Below, piece after piece: positions 33,350 through 41,280 of a stretch of 64,000 bases of DNA. Every line of letters begins with the position of its first letter. Within the stretch, counting starts at the first letter, position 1. The stretch lies in the NCBI RefSeq assembly GCF_000190755.2, contig NZ_JH109153.1:1425872-1489871 (forward strand), given 5' to 3'. This DNA comes from Methylobacter tundripaludum SV96. Its GTDB lineage: Bacteria > Pseudomonadota > Gammaproteobacteria > Methylococcales > Methylomonadaceae. The notes under the pieces are model-generated. The model was not told where the DNA came from. It saw only the letters and a program-made list of their open reading frames with translations, and ran no database searches. Made by a program: the position numbers and the translations under genes.

Positions 33350-34360
33350 ATGATTGATATAAGTTCAGCAGAAATTGCGAAGATTATTGTTCACCGCGTA
33401 GGAAATAGAATCAGGGAGGAGGGATACTCGCTTTCAAATCAAGAGGTAAAAAGAACTAAAGACATTGATGATACTTTCCTTCGTCACTATCTTGCGCCAC
33501 TTGTAAGAAGTAATGATATTTACGGTTTTTATCATGAATCTGATATAGGGTTGAATGCGGTTTATCATTTCACAAACCAAGTTTTTGCAGAGCCTTCAAG
33601 TTTTAGCGAACAATCTCAAAATATTGCGAAACACTTATATAGTGCATCCACTCACCCAAAAATATCTAGTGGGGAACTAATCATCATTTTTTTTACAGGT
33701 CTTATTGTTGATGGCGTAACGTGTGATGCTCTGGGAATCTATCGGATTGAAATGAAAGATAGTTATCTTGATGTAGACGATGATTCAGGTGCATTCCAGC
33801 TTATAGAGCGGACGGGCATTTCACTTGAAAAAATGCAGAAAGGAGCTCTTGTTCTGTCAACTGATAATCGAGTGTTTGCTATAGATTCATTAAGCCAAAA
33901 AACAAAATATTGGATGGAATCGTTCTTAAAAATCACTCCACAAAGTACGCCTAAAGCTTGTGCAAAAATCGGGGGGGCTTTATTGAAAGCAATATCATCA
34001 AAAATATCTGATCCTAATGCTGCTCTTGAACTTGGAAACCGAATATCTAAAAGCATAGAAGAATCTGAAACAATTTCGCTAGGGGTTATTAAAGAAATTT
34101 CAGCCGATTATGTAGATGAAGATGCATTCGGTGAAATACTGAGCAATCTCCAAGGAAAAAGCGGATTTGATCTTGCCGATAATTTGCAGCTAGATAGCCC
34201 GACTTTTGCAAAATACACCAAAAACGTAACTAAACAGACCCGAATTGCAGAAGGAATAACTTTGGTTACGTCAGCTAACTCCAGCATATCAAAAATAGAT
34301 ATTCAAAACACAGAGAATGGACTTGTTGCCACAATAGCTATCGAAATTATGGGGAATTAG
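33350..34360 (+). CDS. Nucleoid-associated protein-like (NdpA/YejK family)
   Basis: A 336-residue protein that I read as a member of the nucleoid-associated NdpA/YejK family: KIIVHRVGNRIREEG at the N-terminus, DIYGFYHESDIGLNAVY, AKHLYSASTHPKISSGELI and a central KMQKGALVLST segment, all in family order and at family length. It is the first gene of an AT-rich operon: the next ATG follows after two bases. The family binds DNA; in this setting it may recognise or mark DNA for the downstream nuclease-like proteins. That role is inference. Base composition differs visibly from flanking genes, suggesting transfer. Confidence 0.7.
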   Translation: MIDISSAEIAKIIVHRVGNRIREEGYSLSNQEVKRTKDIDDTFLRHYLAPLVRSNDIYGFYHESDIGLNAVYHFTNQVFAEPSSFSEQSQNIAKHLYSASTHPKISSGELIIIFFTGLIVDGVTCDALGIYRIEMKDSYLDVDDDSGAFQLIERTGISLEKMQKGALVLSTDNRVFAIDSLSQKTKYWMESFLKITPQSTPKACAKIGGALLKAISSKISDPNAALELGNRISKSIEESETISLGVIKEISADYVDEDAFGEILSNLQGKSGFDLADNLQLDSPTFAKYTKNVTKQTRIAEGITLVTSANSSISKIDIQNTENGLVATIAIEIMGN

Positions 34361-34362
34361 TT

Positions 34363-35346
34363 ATGGGTGGAAAATCAAATGAGTCAGGAAAAATTGGTGA
34401 ACAATTAGCTTCTTCTCTTTTAGAAATGATTGGATGGAAACCATCAATTCACAACCTAACTATCAAATGCAACACGCCGACGCACTTAACTGAAAGTGGA
34501 AATCAGAGAACAACACATGAAGAAGATCAGTTTTTCATATACCACAATCCGTTTCATGATGACCATACCGAAATTGTCCATATTTCGGTAAAAAACAATA
34601 TTGATCAGTATCCGCAAAACGCGGCACTAAAAACTAGTTTTAAAGCCCATTTGAAGGAGTTGCATGAAATCATTGAGTGTGCAAAGCATGACCCAAAACT
34701 AATAGAAATAACTAATTCGTTTGGTGCAAAACGACACAAACACCATTCTGGTTTATTGGTATGGTTACAAAATGATAAGGATAATATTGAGCAGAACATC
34801 AAATCAGACTTATCTAATAGCCAGCTTGAACAATCTAATGATGTACCTGTTTACCTAATAGATAATGCTCGCGCATCTTTCCTGCTAAAAGTTGTTGATG
34901 ATTTAAAGCGTCGTTCAAATAAAGATAATGTTGACGATTTAACGACTCGTTCAGTTAAAGGTAATGTCGAATTTTTTTACCCTCAAATTGGAACATCAAT
35001 GGGAGTTAATGAAAGCCGAACAGGGAAAATGATTCCATTAGAATTAATTGCTGCGGACATTATTTTTGGCTTTATTCGAAACACAGAAGGCAGTGTGCAA
35101 GAGTTAGTCATCTATGCCAATCAAACTTTTAGTGTTGATTCTTATAAAAGGCTAATAGCCTATGCTTTACAATTTGTATCGGGATCTGTTTCAGTTATAA
35201 AAATAGGAATGCCTGATTATAATCCCACACACCATGGAAACGATGCAAAACAAGCTCGCCTTGTTTTCAATCGTCGAGAAGAATCTATAACACCATTCTC
35301 TTTTGAACGCTCTATATTGAATTTTCTTGATGAGGAAACAAAATGA
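34363..35346 (+). CDS. Nuclease-like protein, resembles GapS4a
   Basis: A 327-residue protein. The N-terminus (SGKIGEQLASSLLEMIGW) has the helix often found at the start of restriction-type PD-(D/E)XK nucleases, and residues ~65-80 read PFHDDHTEIVHISVKNN, which could supply the D..(E)xK-type core. The sequence resembles, from memory, GapS4a of the two-gene GAPS4 anti-phage system; this needs a search. It begins two bases after the nucleoid-associated-like gene and overlaps the next gene by ATGA. Low GC and A/T-ending codons set the operon apart from its surroundings. Confidence 0.5.
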   Translation: MGGKSNESGKIGEQLASSLLEMIGWKPSIHNLTIKCNTPTHLTESGNQRTTHEEDQFFIYHNPFHDDHTEIVHISVKNNIDQYPQNAALKTSFKAHLKELHEIIECAKHDPKLIEITNSFGAKRHKHHSGLLVWLQNDKDNIEQNIKSDLSNSQLEQSNDVPVYLIDNARASFLLKVVDDLKRRSNKDNVDDLTTRSVKGNVEFFYPQIGTSMGVNESRTGKMIPLELIAADIIFGFIRNTEGSVQELVIYANQTFSVDSYKRLIAYALQFVSGSVSVIKIGMPDYNPTHHGNDAKQARLVFNRREESITPFSFERSILNFLDEETK

Positions 35347-36482
35347 GTTCGGAATTTAATATATATTCAAGTATTGCTTATGGCAATGAACTTCGTAGAT
35401 TACTTAATAGCAATCACATCTCATACGGTGAAGTAGATAGTGTACTTAAAGAAAAGGGGGTATTTGTAGGTGATAATGACAAAGAAGTTACCGTCCCTTT
35501 GTTATCTGCAACATTGCTTACACCGGATGAATTTTTAAAATTAATCGAGAATAACTTCAATCGTGAATCGCGACCAAAGGTGAAACCTCTTTTGAGTTTA
35601 GAACTTGCTGAGAAAGGTTTGGACTGGATTAGCCCCCTTAAGAAATTATTATTAACAGAAGATTTTCAAATGCTTTCCAGCAAAGGAAATGAAAAGTTCG
35701 TTACGGAACCAACAATTGTTGTAGAAGGTAAAAAAATAACTATATCTTATTCGATTATGCGTGAAGATTTTAGTCGGGATTTTTTACAAAGAGAGCTAAT
35801 TTTTAACGGGGAAATAACGATTGAGCAACAAGGCAATTCACTGAAATTAGACCGTTCTTCAACCCATTCGTCAAAAGGGATTGAAGCTGTTAATAAGAAA
35901 ATAAATTCTCGTATTGCAAAAATACTAAGTGATTCAAAGCTAGTATCTGATACAAAACCACAACAAATTACATTTGGTTCTTTTACTAACGAAGAAAGAG
36001 TTAGGTTCTTTAAGCGGCTTACCGCTGGTTTCCCTAAATATCTTTTGCTTGGAACAGTTAATGATATTGAGATAAGTCTTGATAAAAATGCACCGCCATT
36101 GCCTGATGATCCGCAAATATCATGGATGAAGCAAGCAGTGAGGCGTTTGAAAATTGATGGAGAACGTCTAAATGACATTTTTCTGATTAGTGATGAACAA
36201 TATTACAAGTATTACTATATTCTACGAATTGATATAACGTTTCCATTCAAAGAAGGAGCAAATTCTGGCGAATGTCACATTAGTTTTTCATTTAGCCATT
36301 CAGAACGTAGCAAAAAAAATATTGCTTCATCCGAGTTGATTTTTGATTGTGTAAAAACAACTTACAAAAATACCGCAAACTCGGATGCTAAAAAAATAGT
36401 TACAACGGCTATTAATAAAGCAGTTCGTTCATTAATTGAAGAAAAGTACGAACTATTACTTTCAGAACGAAATGCTAAATAA
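35343..36482 (+). CDS. Unknown protein, resembles GapS4b
   Basis: A 379-residue soluble protein with no catalytic motif that I recognise. The N-terminus (IAYGNELRRLLNS, VLKEKGVFVGD, LLSATLLTPDEF) resembles, from memory, GapS4b, partner of GapS4a in a phage-defence pair. The remainder alternates beta-rich segments (KKITISYSIM) and charged helices. Translation is coupled to the preceding gene by ATGA overlap, so the two products probably form a complex. It ends the AT-rich operon. Identification is tentative. Confidence 0.45.
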   Translation: MSSEFNIYSSIAYGNELRRLLNSNHISYGEVDSVLKEKGVFVGDNDKEVTVPLLSATLLTPDEFLKLIENNFNRESRPKVKPLLSLELAEKGLDWISPLKKLLLTEDFQMLSSKGNEKFVTEPTIVVEGKKITISYSIMREDFSRDFLQRELIFNGEITIEQQGNSLKLDRSSTHSSKGIEAVNKKINSRIAKILSDSKLVSDTKPQQITFGSFTNEERVRFFKRLTAGFPKYLLLGTVNDIEISLDKNAPPLPDDPQISWMKQAVRRLKIDGERLNDIFLISDEQYYKYYYILRIDITFPFKEGANSGECHISFSFSHSERSKKNIASSELIFDCVKTTYKNTANSDAKKIVTTAINKAVRSLIEEKYELLLSERNAK

Positions 36483-37031: not shown

Positions 37032-37340
37032 CTAAACCAAATGCACTTCCAATTTTTTACCCACAGCAGCGGCGTATTTGCGCAAGGTGTCGATAGACGG
37101 CGAATGTTTGCCTGAGACCAAGGCGCTTTCCAGGCGGGCCACCGCCGAGGCTTTTGTGCCCATGCGATCAGCGACTTGCGCTTGGGTTAATCCGGCTTCG
37201 CGTCTGGCGCTGAGTATTTCGTCGAGTATGGCGTATTTTGTGATGTTGGCGTCATAATCGGCTTTTACCGCCGGATTACTTAATAATTGTTCGCGAAATG
37301 CGGCATCGTGTGGAACGGGTTGGTAAGTATCGTTAGCCAT
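37032..37340 (-). CDS. XRE-family antitoxin, HigA-like
   Basis: A 102-residue protein with a Cro/C1 helix-turn-helix at ~40-95 (REAGLTQAQVADRMGTKASAVARLESAL, split over the recognition helix). It overlaps the preceding toxin gene by eight bases, the toxin-first order typical of HigBA modules. It should bind and neutralise the toxin and repress the operon. Confidence 0.85.
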   Translation of the reverse strand: MANDTYQPVPHDAAFREQLLSNPAVKADYDANITKYAILDEILSARREAGLTQAQVADRMGTKASAVARLESALVSGKHSPSIDTLRKYAAAVGKKLEVHLV

Positions 37341-37659
37341 GGTTAACCTCTTTTAGTCGTTTTCTGGCAAGCTGTAAATCAGCCGCTGGTGTGGTATTGG
37401 TTTTCTTGACTAGGCTATGCAAAATAACAATCGCCTGTCCAATTTGTGTGCAATAAAACACGCGCCCGATGCCTTCTTTGCCTTTGGGGCGCAGTTCGAA
37501 TAAACCGCCGCCCATTGCACGGGAATGAGGCATGTGCAAATTTGCCCCGTGATTTTGCATTAAATCGGTCAAGTGAATGTAATCCGCTAAGATTCCCGCC
37601 GGTAGTGCCATCACTTGCTGCTTAACCCGCTCATTGTAGTAGGTGATGGTATAGTTCAT
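37333..37659 (-). CDS. RelE/Gp49-family toxin, HigB-like
   Basis: A 108-residue RelE-fold toxin of the Gp49/HigB group, recognised by GGGLFELRPKGKEGIGRVFYC and VILHSLVKKTNTTP. Such toxins cleave mRNA on the ribosome. It is upstream of and overlaps its HigA-like antitoxin. The ATG at 37659 is preceded by only weak ribosome-site sequence. The module looks intact. Confidence 0.85.
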   Translation of the reverse strand: MNYTITYYNERVKQQVMALPAGILADYIHLTDLMQNHGANLHMPHSRAMGGGLFELRPKGKEGIGRVFYCTQIGQAIVILHSLVKKTNTTPAADLQLARKRLKEVNHG

Positions 37660-37752: not shown

Positions 37753-37952
37753 GCTCTCGTTCCTACGTAGCATGTCACTGCCATTAAATTAAGGATGGAC
37801 AGTACCTTTTCCCTCAGGGAGAAGGTTAGGATGAGGGGATCAAATAAAGCTTTTTGCCTTATTTTTTATTCTCCTCACCCCAACCCTCTCCAGCAGGAGA
37901 GGGGGTTTTTTCTTAATTTAATGGCAGTGACGTAGCATGTGGGAACGAGAGC
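37753..37952. repeat. 200-bp nested palindromic block
   Basis: Outer arms GCTCTCGTTCC and GGAACGAGAGC, then CACTGCCATTAAATTAAG (37776-37793) facing CTTAATTTAATGGCAGTG, then an inner pair of CCTCTCC/GGAGAGG-type repeats (37808-37904). The CATTAA arms match those at 21541-21845. The block fills most of the 343-base gap between HigB and the cydX-like gene; no coding sequence is seen there. Confidence 0.8.
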
Positions 37953-38002: not shown

Positions 38003-38572
38003 TTATAAGCCGCTCTTTGCCGTTGCAACTCTGATCAATTCATCCACTTCATTCGTTGTAGCAGCAGATTTTTCAGTGAGTGCGGAGTATTCAGCAACCC
38101 CAACAGCCGCTTCAACAACCAGGCCGGGCGCTTTAACTTGCTGTGAAATTCCGTTTTTAATCTGCCCCGCAAGCCGCTCGGCTTTCCTCAACGGCGAACC
38201 CGGCAGGGCGATCAAGAAGTCTTGCTCTCCCATTCTCGCCGCAATATCGACGCCAGCCCTGATGTCGTTCTTAAAACAACCGGCCACGCCGCGTAATATC
38301 GCGTCCATTTCGTAGTCGGGCAGGTCGTTATGCTGGGTTTTAAAATCTTTCAAGCTGATAAAAAGAATGGAAAACGGGAAGCCGTTGCGTTTGGAGTTTT
38401 CGACTTTTTCCTGTAAGCGGCCCAGCATCGTGTCTCTGGTCATTAACTGGGTTAGCGGGTCTAAGGGGATATGTTCCCTATCCCATGTTTCCTGAGCCTC
38501 CAGCCGCAGCACGTTGATAATGCCTAGTGAGCAGGCCAGTAATAATCCAAGTATCCAGGTGAAATACCACAT
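38003..38572 (-). CDS. CydX fused to a degenerate GGDEF domain
   Basis: A 189-residue protein with two parts. Residues 1-~32 (MWYFTWILGLLLACS, then GIINVLRLEAQE) are a recognisable CydX/YbgT small subunit of cytochrome bd oxidase: one transmembrane helix with the family's MWYF start. Residues ~38-185 are a GGDEF-type domain (DPLTQLMTRDTML, SILFISLKDFK) in which the active-site motif is MGEQDF instead of GGDEF and no RxxD site is present, so cyclase activity is unlikely. It follows cydB after nine bases, with a TAGGAG ribosome site, exactly where cydX normally lies. Confidence 0.85.
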   Translation of the reverse strand: MWYFTWILGLLLACSLGIINVLRLEAQETWDREHIPLDPLTQLMTRDTMLGRLQEKVENSKRNGFPFSILFISLKDFKTQHNDLPDYEMDAILRGVAGCFKNDIRAGVDIAARMGEQDFLIALPGSPLRKAERLAGQIKNGISQQVKAPGLVVEAAVGVAEYSALTEKSAATTNEVDELIRVATAKSGL

Positions 38573-38581
38573 AGCAATCTC

Positions 38582-39721
38582 CTAATAAGCCGAATGATCG
38601 TTCTGATGAATGTGTTCCAGCGTGATTTTTCCGCGCATCACGCGGAACGCCCAAGTTGTGTAAGCGACAACGATGGGTAAAAAAATCACCGTCACCCAGA
38701 ACATGATTTTTAAGGTGGTAAGGCTGGAACTGGCGTCCCATACGGTCAAGGAACTGCTCAGCGCCGAGCTCGACGGTATCAGGAACGGAAACATCGATAC
38801 GCCCGCCGTTAAAATAACGGAAGTTAATACTAATGAACTGGTTATAAATGCCAGACCAGTGCGGTCAATTTTCGATAGCACGATGGTTGCAACTCCTGCA
38901 ATAAAAGCCAGCGCGGGAATAACCCATAACACAGGACAATGCGCATAGTTATCCAGCCATAAGCCCGGTTCTTTGGAAACCATTTTTGCCAATGGGTTGG
39001 ACGGTGCGTTAGGGAGGATTTCTGTGGTGATACGGTAACCGTCAATATGGGCAACCCAGAAGCCCGCCACAGCAAAAATGACCAGCGTTATGATTGCAGA
39101 AACAGTGACCACTTTTTTACAACGCCGATTAATGTCACCCTCGGTTTTGAGCTGTAAATAAACCGCACCGTGCATGATCAGCATCGATAAGCTGAGCAGT
39201 CCCGCCGCCAATGCAAAAGGGTTTAATAATGCCCAGAACGAGCCGGTATAAAAAATACGCATATCGTTATCGAAGTGGAACGGTACGCCTTGCAACAAGT
39301 TGCCGAACGCCACGCCGAAAATCAATGCCGGTACGAACCCTCCGACAAACAACGCAATATCCCAGTTGTTGCGCCATGTTTGGCTGGGCAGTTTACTGCG
39401 GTAATCAAAGCCTATCGGCCTTAAGAATAACGCAAACAAGGTCAGCAATAAGGCGAAATAAAATCCCGAAAATGCCACGGAATAGGCGATAGGCCAGGCA
39501 GCAAACAACGCGCCGCCCGCGGTTATAAACCAAACTTGGTTGCCTTCCCAGGTTGCGCCGATGGAATTGATAATCACGCGGCGTTCGCTATCGTTTTTCC
39601 CTAAAAAGGGTAATAAGACCGCCACGCCCAGGTCAAAGCCGTCGGTAATGGCAAAGCCGATCAATAAAGCGCCTAATAAAGCCCACCAGATCAGGCGCAG
39701 GGTTTCATAATCGAAAATCAT
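38582..39721 (-). CDS. cydB: Cytochrome bd oxidase subunit II
   Basis: A 379-residue membrane protein with about eight transmembrane helices: LIGFAITDGFDLGVAVLLP at the N-terminus, NSIGATWEGNQVWFI (near residue 55) and WDASSSLTTLKIMFWV near the end. This is the standard proteobacterial CydB. The start overlaps cydA by ATGA. Together with cydA and the CydX-like fusion it makes the quinol oxidase that reduces oxygen at low concentration. Confidence 0.97.
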   Translation of the reverse strand: MIFDYETLRLIWWALLGALLIGFAITDGFDLGVAVLLPFLGKNDSERRVIINSIGATWEGNQVWFITAGGALFAAWPIAYSVAFSGFYFALLLTLFALFLRPIGFDYRSKLPSQTWRNNWDIALFVGGFVPALIFGVAFGNLLQGVPFHFDNDMRIFYTGSFWALLNPFALAAGLLSLSMLIMHGAVYLQLKTEGDINRRCKKVVTVSAIITLVIFAVAGFWVAHIDGYRITTEILPNAPSNPLAKMVSKEPGLWLDNYAHCPVLWVIPALAFIAGVATIVLSKIDRTGLAFITSSLVLTSVILTAGVSMFPFLIPSSSALSSSLTVWDASSSLTTLKIMFWVTVIFLPIVVAYTTWAFRVMRGKITLEHIHQNDHSAY

Positions 39722-41280
39722 AGTGATGCTCCTGTGGCGATTTCAAAATGGTAACGGCCTTTATGCAGGCTGCTGGGGCCTAACTTGATAAATTTGAGCA
39801 TCAAGAACATTTCGATGATCAAAAATACCGTATATAAACCGATATAGCCTGCCAGACTTAGATATATATCCAGTTCGGTTAGGGAGGATGTGCTTAAGAA
39901 TGTCGGTAAAATCTCCGCAATCGTCCATGGCTGACGGCCGAATTCGGCTACAAACCATCCCATTTCAGAGGCAATCCAGGGTAAAGGCATAATATAAAGA
40001 CTCGAACGCAACAACCAGTTCTGCCTGCATTTACGAATCGAGCTGGCGATAACCGCAAAAATAAATATCGCCAGCATAATAAAGCCGCAAGCCACCATGA
40101 TTCGGAAGGTCCAGAATAAAGGCACGACTCTGGGTATCGAATATTGCACCGCCTGTTCTACTTGCTGGTCGGTCGCGTCGACCACGTTCTCCGTATAGCG
40201 TTTGAGCAATAGACCGTAACCCAAATCCTGTTTGTAATGGTTAAACTCGGCACGGACAATAGGATCTTTGCTGCCGGTTCTTAACGTCTGTAACAGTGAA
40301 TAGGCCTTCATGCCGTCACGAATGCGCTGGCGATTTTTTTCCAGGATCTCCGATAGTCCGGTAATCGGCTCATCGACAGAACGCGTGCCGATCAAGCCCA
40401 ATACCCAGGGAATTTTTATTGCATAATGCGTTTCCATGGTTTCCTGATCGGGAATGCCGATGACGGTAAATGCTGCGGGCGGTTCGACGGTGTGCCATTC
40501 GGCCTCGATAGCGGCCAGTTTGGCTTTTTGTACTTCGCCGTCGGTATAGCCGCTTTCATCGCCCAACACGATGACCGACAGGATCGCGGCCAGGCCAAAA
40601 CCTGCGGCGATGGTATAAGAGCGTTGCGCAAAGGCTGCATCGCGACCTTTCAGCATGTAATAAGCGCTGATGCCCAGCACGAAAACAGAGGCGGTGGTGT
40701 AACCTGCGGCAACGGTATGGACGAATTTAACCTGGGCGGCCGGGTTGAATAACAGGTCACCGAAGCTGGAGATTTCCATACGCATGGTTTCGTAATTGAA
40801 CTCGGCGCCGACCGGGTTTTGCATCCAGCCGTTGGCGACCAGAATCCATAACGCGGATAAGTTGGTTCCTAACGCAACCAGCCAGGTCACCAGCAAATGT
40901 TGTCCTTTGCCCAGCTTGTCCCAGCCGAAGAAAAACAGGCCGACAAAGGTGGATTCCAGGAAAAACGCCATCAAGCCCTCAATAGCAAGCGGCGCGCCGA
41001 AAATATCGCCGACATAATGCGAGAAATACGACCAGTTCATGCCGAATTGAAATTCCATGGTCAAACCGGTGGTGACGCCCAGCGCGAAATTGATGCCGAA
41101 TAATTTTCCCCAGAACTGGGTCATATCCTTGTAAATTTCTTTGCCGGTCATAACATAGGTCGATTCCATAATCGCTAGTAAAAACGACAAGCCCAATGTC
41201 AACGGAACAAACAGAAAATGGTATAGAGAAGTTGCTGCAAACTGCCAGCGCGATAAATCAACCACGGCCTCTGAAATCAT
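39718..41280 (-). CDS. cydA: Cytochrome bd oxidase subunit I
   Basis: A 520-residue catalytic subunit. Visible are the N-terminal haem-ligand His in LYHFLFVPLTLG, the quinol-loop sequence KLAAIEAEWHT with FTVIGIPDQE (long-loop, E. coli type), and the GRQPWTIAEILPT motif. It oxidises quinol and holds haems b558, b595 and d. It heads cydA-cydB-cydX(GGDEF). The upstream 372-base region is shared with the divergent SQR gene. Confidence 0.97.
   Translation of the reverse strand: MISEAVVDLSRWQFAATSLYHFLFVPLTLGLSFLLAIMESTYVMTGKEIYKDMTQFWGKLFGINFALGVTTGLTMEFQFGMNWSYFSHYVGDIFGAPLAIEGLMAFFLESTFVGLFFFGWDKLGKGQHLLVTWLVALGTNLSALWILVANGWMQNPVGAEFNYETMRMEISSFGDLLFNPAAQVKFVHTVAAGYTTASVFVLGISAYYMLKGRDAAFAQRSYTIAAGFGLAAILSVIVLGDESGYTDGEVQKAKLAAIEAEWHTVEPPAAFTVIGIPDQETMETHYAIKIPWVLGLIGTRSVDEPITGLSEILEKNRQRIRDGMKAYSLLQTLRTGSKDPIVRAEFNHYKQDLGYGLLLKRYTENVVDATDQQVEQAVQYSIPRVVPLFWTFRIMVACGFIMLAIFIFAVIASSIRKCRQNWLLRSSLYIMPLPWIASEMGWFVAEFGRQPWTIAEILPTFLSTSSLTELDIYLSLAGYIGLYTVFLIIEMFLMLKFIKLGPSSLHKGRYHFEIATGASL

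Follow-up and report, generated by a model that had tools for sequence, protein, structure and literature searches.

The window, a stretch of 64,000 nucleotides from Methylobacter tundripaludum SV96, carries on its minus strand a cytochrome bd oxidase operon whose third gene encodes the small subunit CydX and a degenerate GGDEF domain in a single protein of 189 aa. CydX is usually regarded as a minimal one-helix subunit. We consider it close to an even chance (a probability of about 0.48) that the added domain would act as a non-catalytic contact module, which tunes or stabilizes the dimeric oxidase or its assembly, or serves to dock a partner protein. The features to which we refer below, in coordinates of the window, are as follows.

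39718-41280, minus strand: cydA, cytochrome bd-I oxidase subunit I of the long Q-loop type (PF01654, E 1.6e-168).
38582-39721, minus strand: cydB, cytochrome bd oxidase subunit II (PF02322, E 1.1e-103; TIGR00203, 505 bits).
38579-38583, minus strand: Shine-Dalgarno sequence AGGAG of cydX-ggdef, sharing nucleotides with the stop codon of cydB (from the sequence; similar in homologues).
38003-38572, minus strand: cydX-ggdef, 189 aa, CydX and a degenerate GGDEF domain in frame (open reading frame, profile matches and 45 aligned homologues).
38489-38572, minus strand: CydX part, residues 1-28, single transmembrane helix, MWYFTWILGLLLACSLGIINVLRLEAQE (PF08173, TIGR02106 and model helix 2-33).
38465-38488, minus strand: stalk or linker, residues 29-36 (between both Pfam matches; the model helix reaches residue 33).
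38003-38464, minus strand: degenerate GGDEF domain, residues 37-189 and stop codon (PF00990, E 2.5e-16; Foldseek).
38216-38236, minus strand: degenerate active-site motif R-M-G-E-Q-D-F, residues 113-119, replacing R-x-GGDEF (alignment to DosC, SiaD and PleD).

The adjoining cydB and cydA confirm the location in a cytochrome bd operon that the earlier note had proposed, with cydX-ggdef as the third gene of a minus-strand cydABX. Its start codon lies 9 nt past the cydB stop, and 4 nt are shared between cydA and cydB. CydB was found upstream of the fused gene in 44 loci. The CydA protein matched E. coli CydA (6rko_A) with 812 bits in an alignment that spans the Q-loop. Scanning the operon for promoters and terminators gave nothing above chance.

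Residues 1-27 matched PF08173 with 54.8 bits (E 9.5e-15, cut-off 26.2), which covers a complete CydX part, and residues 1-28 matched the NCBIfam CydX family TIGR02106 with 50.7 bits (cut-off 31.6). With both scores above the cut-offs, the claim that this gene opens like CydX holds. phmmer aligned residues 1-29 with the E. coli CydX of structure 6rko. The protein has the MWYFxWILG...E signature and a single transmembrane helix, and its gene is placed after cydB in an operon with a long-Q-loop CydA; only in size does it depart from CydX, which has a few tens of residues (32-56 aa for plain CydX in the sampled genomes). The 45-protein alignment has 30 invariant columns, of which 18 lie in the CydX part. 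Since no other gene of the same genome matches CydX, the product of the fused gene is likely, as judged from sequence, to serve as an oxidase subunit.

The rest of the protein resembles GGDEF domains in both profile and predicted structure. Residues 37-183 matched PF00990 with 60.3 bits (E 2.5e-16, cut-off 23.8), and all 45 aligned homologues matched both PF08173 and PF00990. An AlphaFold model of the single chain, computed from the 45-sequence alignment with moderate confidence (mean pLDDT 77, pTM 0.62), consists of a helix at residues 2-33 followed by an alpha/beta domain. Foldseek returned GGDEF domains as the nearest solved structures (E down to 1e-12). Relative to target length, the TM-score was 0.77-0.81 for GcbC, WspR, and a T. 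maritima DGC and 0.78 for FimX (3hva); a GCN4-zipper-WspR fusion was also among the nearest matches. The profile match and the model bear out the proposal of a GGDEF-fold domain that follows CydX in one frame. A chance or frameshift fusion was ruled out, as the frame runs through without an internal stop in the 45 homologues. The basal members L094 and L095 retain more GGDEF character; L095 matched PF00990 across the whole profile, up to a GKN-type end, with an E value of 2.2e-22. This end is gone in the main clade, and the GRN-type C-terminal motif is absent from the window protein. Because the basal members keep both the GGDEF character and the GKN-type end, the data fit a true GGDEF domain that would have lost its activity first and its C-terminal motif later.

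Functional residues were mapped by alignment to DosC, SiaD, and PleD, with the functional positions of these enzymes as a guide. The window motif reads R-M-G-E-Q-D-F, that is, GEQDF for GGDEF, in agreement with the MGEQDF reported previously. An intact GG[DE]EF A-site motif was present in none of the 45 homologues, and the Asp that binds metal ahead of the first loop (DxD-x-F-K) was replaced in every one (by Ser in 34 and by Asn in 11). Since both losses extend to all 45, the domain, to judge from these alignments, cannot be an active diguanylate cyclase. It is thus scarcely credible that the protein reports the state of the oxidase or of oxygen by making c-di-GMP, although it has a GGDEF fold and retains the DxLT start of the domain.

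The I-site is altered in a different manner. The RxxD motif, which is expected five residues before GGDEF, was found in 0/45 homologues, in line with its reported absence from the window protein. Its Arg position is variable, and an invariant Arg is located one residue further off to give RxxxD, with the same one-residue shift in every member. R105 and D109 were invariant in all 45 homologues and position 113 was Arg in 44, whereas the guanine-side positions were retained in part (N82 in 29/45, D90 in 39/45). These residues would be compatible with a sensor, in which the remodelled site (for example RxxxD together with R113) binds c-di-GMP, GTP, or another nucleotide and the domain thereby adjusts the activity or assembly of the oxidase. 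GGDEF proteins are numerous in the genome (42 matches), and a degenerate GGDEF protein, CdgI, binds c-di-GMP, but through an I-site that is intact (PMC5635695). We regard a sensor as doubtful because, besides the shifted Arg, the metal Asp and the GGDEF loop are gone, the loop is the least conserved element, and the window protein has no GRN-type motif at its end. The binding of GTP or c-di-GMP suggested in the earlier note is therefore unsupported, since all 45 homologues have lost RxxD, the GGDEF loop, and the metal ligand.

The distribution of conserved residues points away from the old active site. The mean pairwise identity of the GGDEF loop was 0.41, the lowest of any element of the domain, whereas the highest values were obtained for residues 104-113 (0.78), the DxLT start (0.75), beta1 (0.68), and alpha1 (0.67). 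Since the loop falls so far below alpha1 and residues 104-113, the pattern is unlike that of a cyclase, with constraint shifted away from the active site. The conservation of alpha1 and of the Arg and Asp residues may be partly due to the needs of the fold or to common ancestry.

Selection was estimated as summed dN over summed dS for the unsaturated pairs among 21 close homologues, which gave dN/dS values of 0.008 for the CydX part, ~0.11 for residues 37-149, and 0.25 for residues 150-189. Because of the value in its core, the GGDEF domain is under purifying selection, which is looser at the C-terminal end. The domain thus combines a dead A-site with maintenance by selection, as in a non-catalytic GGDEF module. 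A decayed GGDEF domain that needs only to fold, and that is a harmless ornament on a dispensable CydX tail, would be expected to have such a fast-evolving C-terminal quarter and to lose its GKN-type end as the main clade did. The tail of CydX is indeed permissive in E. coli, where the protein tolerates C-terminal changes (PMC6005532, PMC4325964) and is functional with a C-terminal tag (PMC6005532); because of the latter, the oxidase is not necessarily disturbed by an additional domain. One metagenome-assembled genome, L096, has a cydX-ggdef with an internal deletion and a frameshift, which is either an assembly error or decay. We nevertheless consider a purely structural ornament unlikely: the core dN/dS of 0.11 argues against it, even if selection against misfolding alone could give part of this value, and the fusion persists down to a CydA identity of 71% and also in a Gigantopelta endosymbiont, with no loss in the other genomes checked.

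A search for the CydX-GGDEF architecture across genomes, which had been proposed as a check, recovered it in 45 aligned proteins from Methylococcales. Among 61 related genomes, 20 fused copies were obtained, including that of the window, and a contig scan gave named fused loci that are nearly all from Methylococcales and belong to Methylobacter, a Methylovulum, 'Methylomonas' MAGs, and the Gigantopelta endosymbiont. One locus, L085, is titled uncultured Epsilonproteobacteria bacterium and is likely a methanotroph contig that was binned wrongly. Across the order, a genome with such a cydAB encodes CydX in one of two forms, fused or ordinary. The fusion goes with a long CydA at least 71% identical to that of the window and plain CydX with a CydA at most 70% identical, the exceptions above 71% being L096, because of its deletion, and L071, in which the contig ends inside the gene, while short CydA fragments (~115 aa) in the list stand outside this rule. 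In the CydA tree, the 40 fused rows were placed on one side of a branch with an SH-aLRT of 92, and because of this common placement the tree fits a single origin of the fusion. Fifteen CydA positions were specific to the clade, some of them apparently in cytoplasmic loops, and common ancestry explains them equally well as docking.

Among 369 genomes of the class and 398 of the phylum, which included few Methylococcales and for which a limited number of candidates was scored per genome, no full match was obtained outside the window's own genome. A widespread architecture was ruled out for these samples. Long open frames also surround CydX in Methylomonas and further genera; CydX ends there at 36-56 aa, and these frames were discarded as chance.

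Several other elements were observed around the operon and elsewhere in the genome. Just downstream of the cyd operon is a 200-bp element (37753-37952) with 41-nt inverted-repeat ends that are 85% complementary. It looks like a MITE-type repeat because its end sequence recurs in the genome, at 17 sites with at most 1 mismatch, both of its own ends counted. Two adjoining minus-strand genes at 37032-37659, encoding a Gp49-like (PF05973) and an HTH (PF01381) protein, have the make-up of a HigBA/RelE-type toxin-antitoxin pair. At 33350-36482, downstream of an IS200-like (Y1) transposase gene, three successive plus-strand genes form what is possibly an uncharacterised defence or mobile island; one encodes an NA37 nucleoid-associated-like protein (PF04245), and the products of the other two are large and lack a Pfam match. 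In 16 of the 45 loci (for example from L052:8666 onward), the fused gene is followed by one for a 144-aa membrane protein that looks PsiE-like; this gene was dismissed as a part of the system since its conservation is too limited. The genome also contains a second, distant bd-type oxidase (L169, G000:C3:233938-234852; CydA ~40% identical), near which no CydX was recognised.

The location of the domain depends on the topology of CydX. In the cryo-EM structure of E. coli bd-I, the C-terminal part of CydX is exposed toward the cytoplasm (PMC6853902), whereas in an older topology model this end of the protein was periplasmic (PMC4325964). The earlier note had put the helix in the oxidase and the domain in the cytoplasm, an arrangement that agrees with the cryo-EM structure and conflicts with the older model. 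Since a GGDEF fold in the periplasm would be strange, the fusion would favour a cytoplasmic C-terminus, and a cytosolic fold at this end of CydX bears on the disagreement of cryo-EM with the older models. In the bd-I dimer, CydX builds the two-fold interface, with a leucine zipper and a contact between Met and Trp (PMC13189123), and AppX makes the contact in the bd-II dimer (PMC8585947).

For the contact module that we prefer, we propose the following arrangement. The gene product would be the CydX subunit of the long-Q-loop cytochrome bd oxidase, its helix would pack against CydA as in E. coli, and its cytoplasmic C-terminal end would bear a GGDEF-fold domain unable to synthesize c-di-GMP. 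As the two-fold dimer interface is where the CydX helices are located, two such domains would meet beneath the bd oxidase dimer, provided that this oxidase dimerises like the E. coli enzymes, and this pairing suggests a module for contacts. It would stabilise or tune the dimer or its assembly, or dock a partner such as another GGDEF/EAL protein. The contacts would probably be made by the conserved alpha1 and the region from R105 to R113 and not by the old active site; we infer them, as well as the dimer itself. In E. coli, certain degenerate GGDEF domains form homodimers or associate with other domains of this type (PMC5635695). The reading draws on the present results for the fusion, the predicted fold, the motif loss, the selection, the tree, and the exclusive link with one CydA clade, and on published work for the topology and the dimer interface. 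We hold with low confidence a further proposal that the paired domains bind a nucleotide or a protein of the c-di-GMP pathway and switch the oxidase between states, which would be allosteric control through the small subunit. If true, oxygen respiration in methanotrophs would be coupled to the status of c-di-GMP or GTP; the bd oxidases of these bacteria are considered to sustain life when oxygen is scarce.

None of the open-licence full texts searched describes a single protein that combines CydX with GGDEF or c-di-GMP. A 2014 survey of CydX does not mention any fusion, and a survey of Methylobacter genomes from 2025, which lists cydAB(X), is silent on both GGDEF and a fusion (PMC12810054). 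CydX and GGDEF are each well known, and their combination is new as far as we found; this is apparently the first respiratory oxidase, within the same limits, with a domain of the c-di-GMP family inside a subunit. In Methylobacter and its methane-eating relatives, a respiratory enzyme thus appears to incorporate a signalling-type module, and the fusion may offer a natural handle on the cytoplasmic regulation of bd oxidase dimerisation or activity.

Compared with known systems, the protein resembles CydX/YbgT (6rko_X) and AppX/CbdX in its N-terminal 27-29 residues, its single helix, its place after cydB, and its long-Q-loop CydA partner, but differs from these in an added domain of 150 residues. 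It shares the GGDEF fold, by profile and predicted structure, with DosC, SiaD, WspR, PleD, and GcbC, but has neither the GGDEF motif, the metal Asp, and RxxD nor a sensor domain, and it is carried on a respiratory subunit. A dead A-site with the GGDEF fold kept is also found in E. coli CdgI, CsrD, and the GGDEF domains of PdeR/PdeK and in P. aeruginosa FimX. Those domains are parts of proteins for c-di-GMP signalling, and the I-site is intact in some of them, whereas the present one belongs to an oxidase subunit and its I-site is altered. In the chains of an ammonium transporter (PDB 8qj3, 8qpf), the C-terminal part from residue 468 matches the same GGDEF profile; these chains are membrane transport proteins and not respiratory enzymes, and their GGDEF domain is presumably active.
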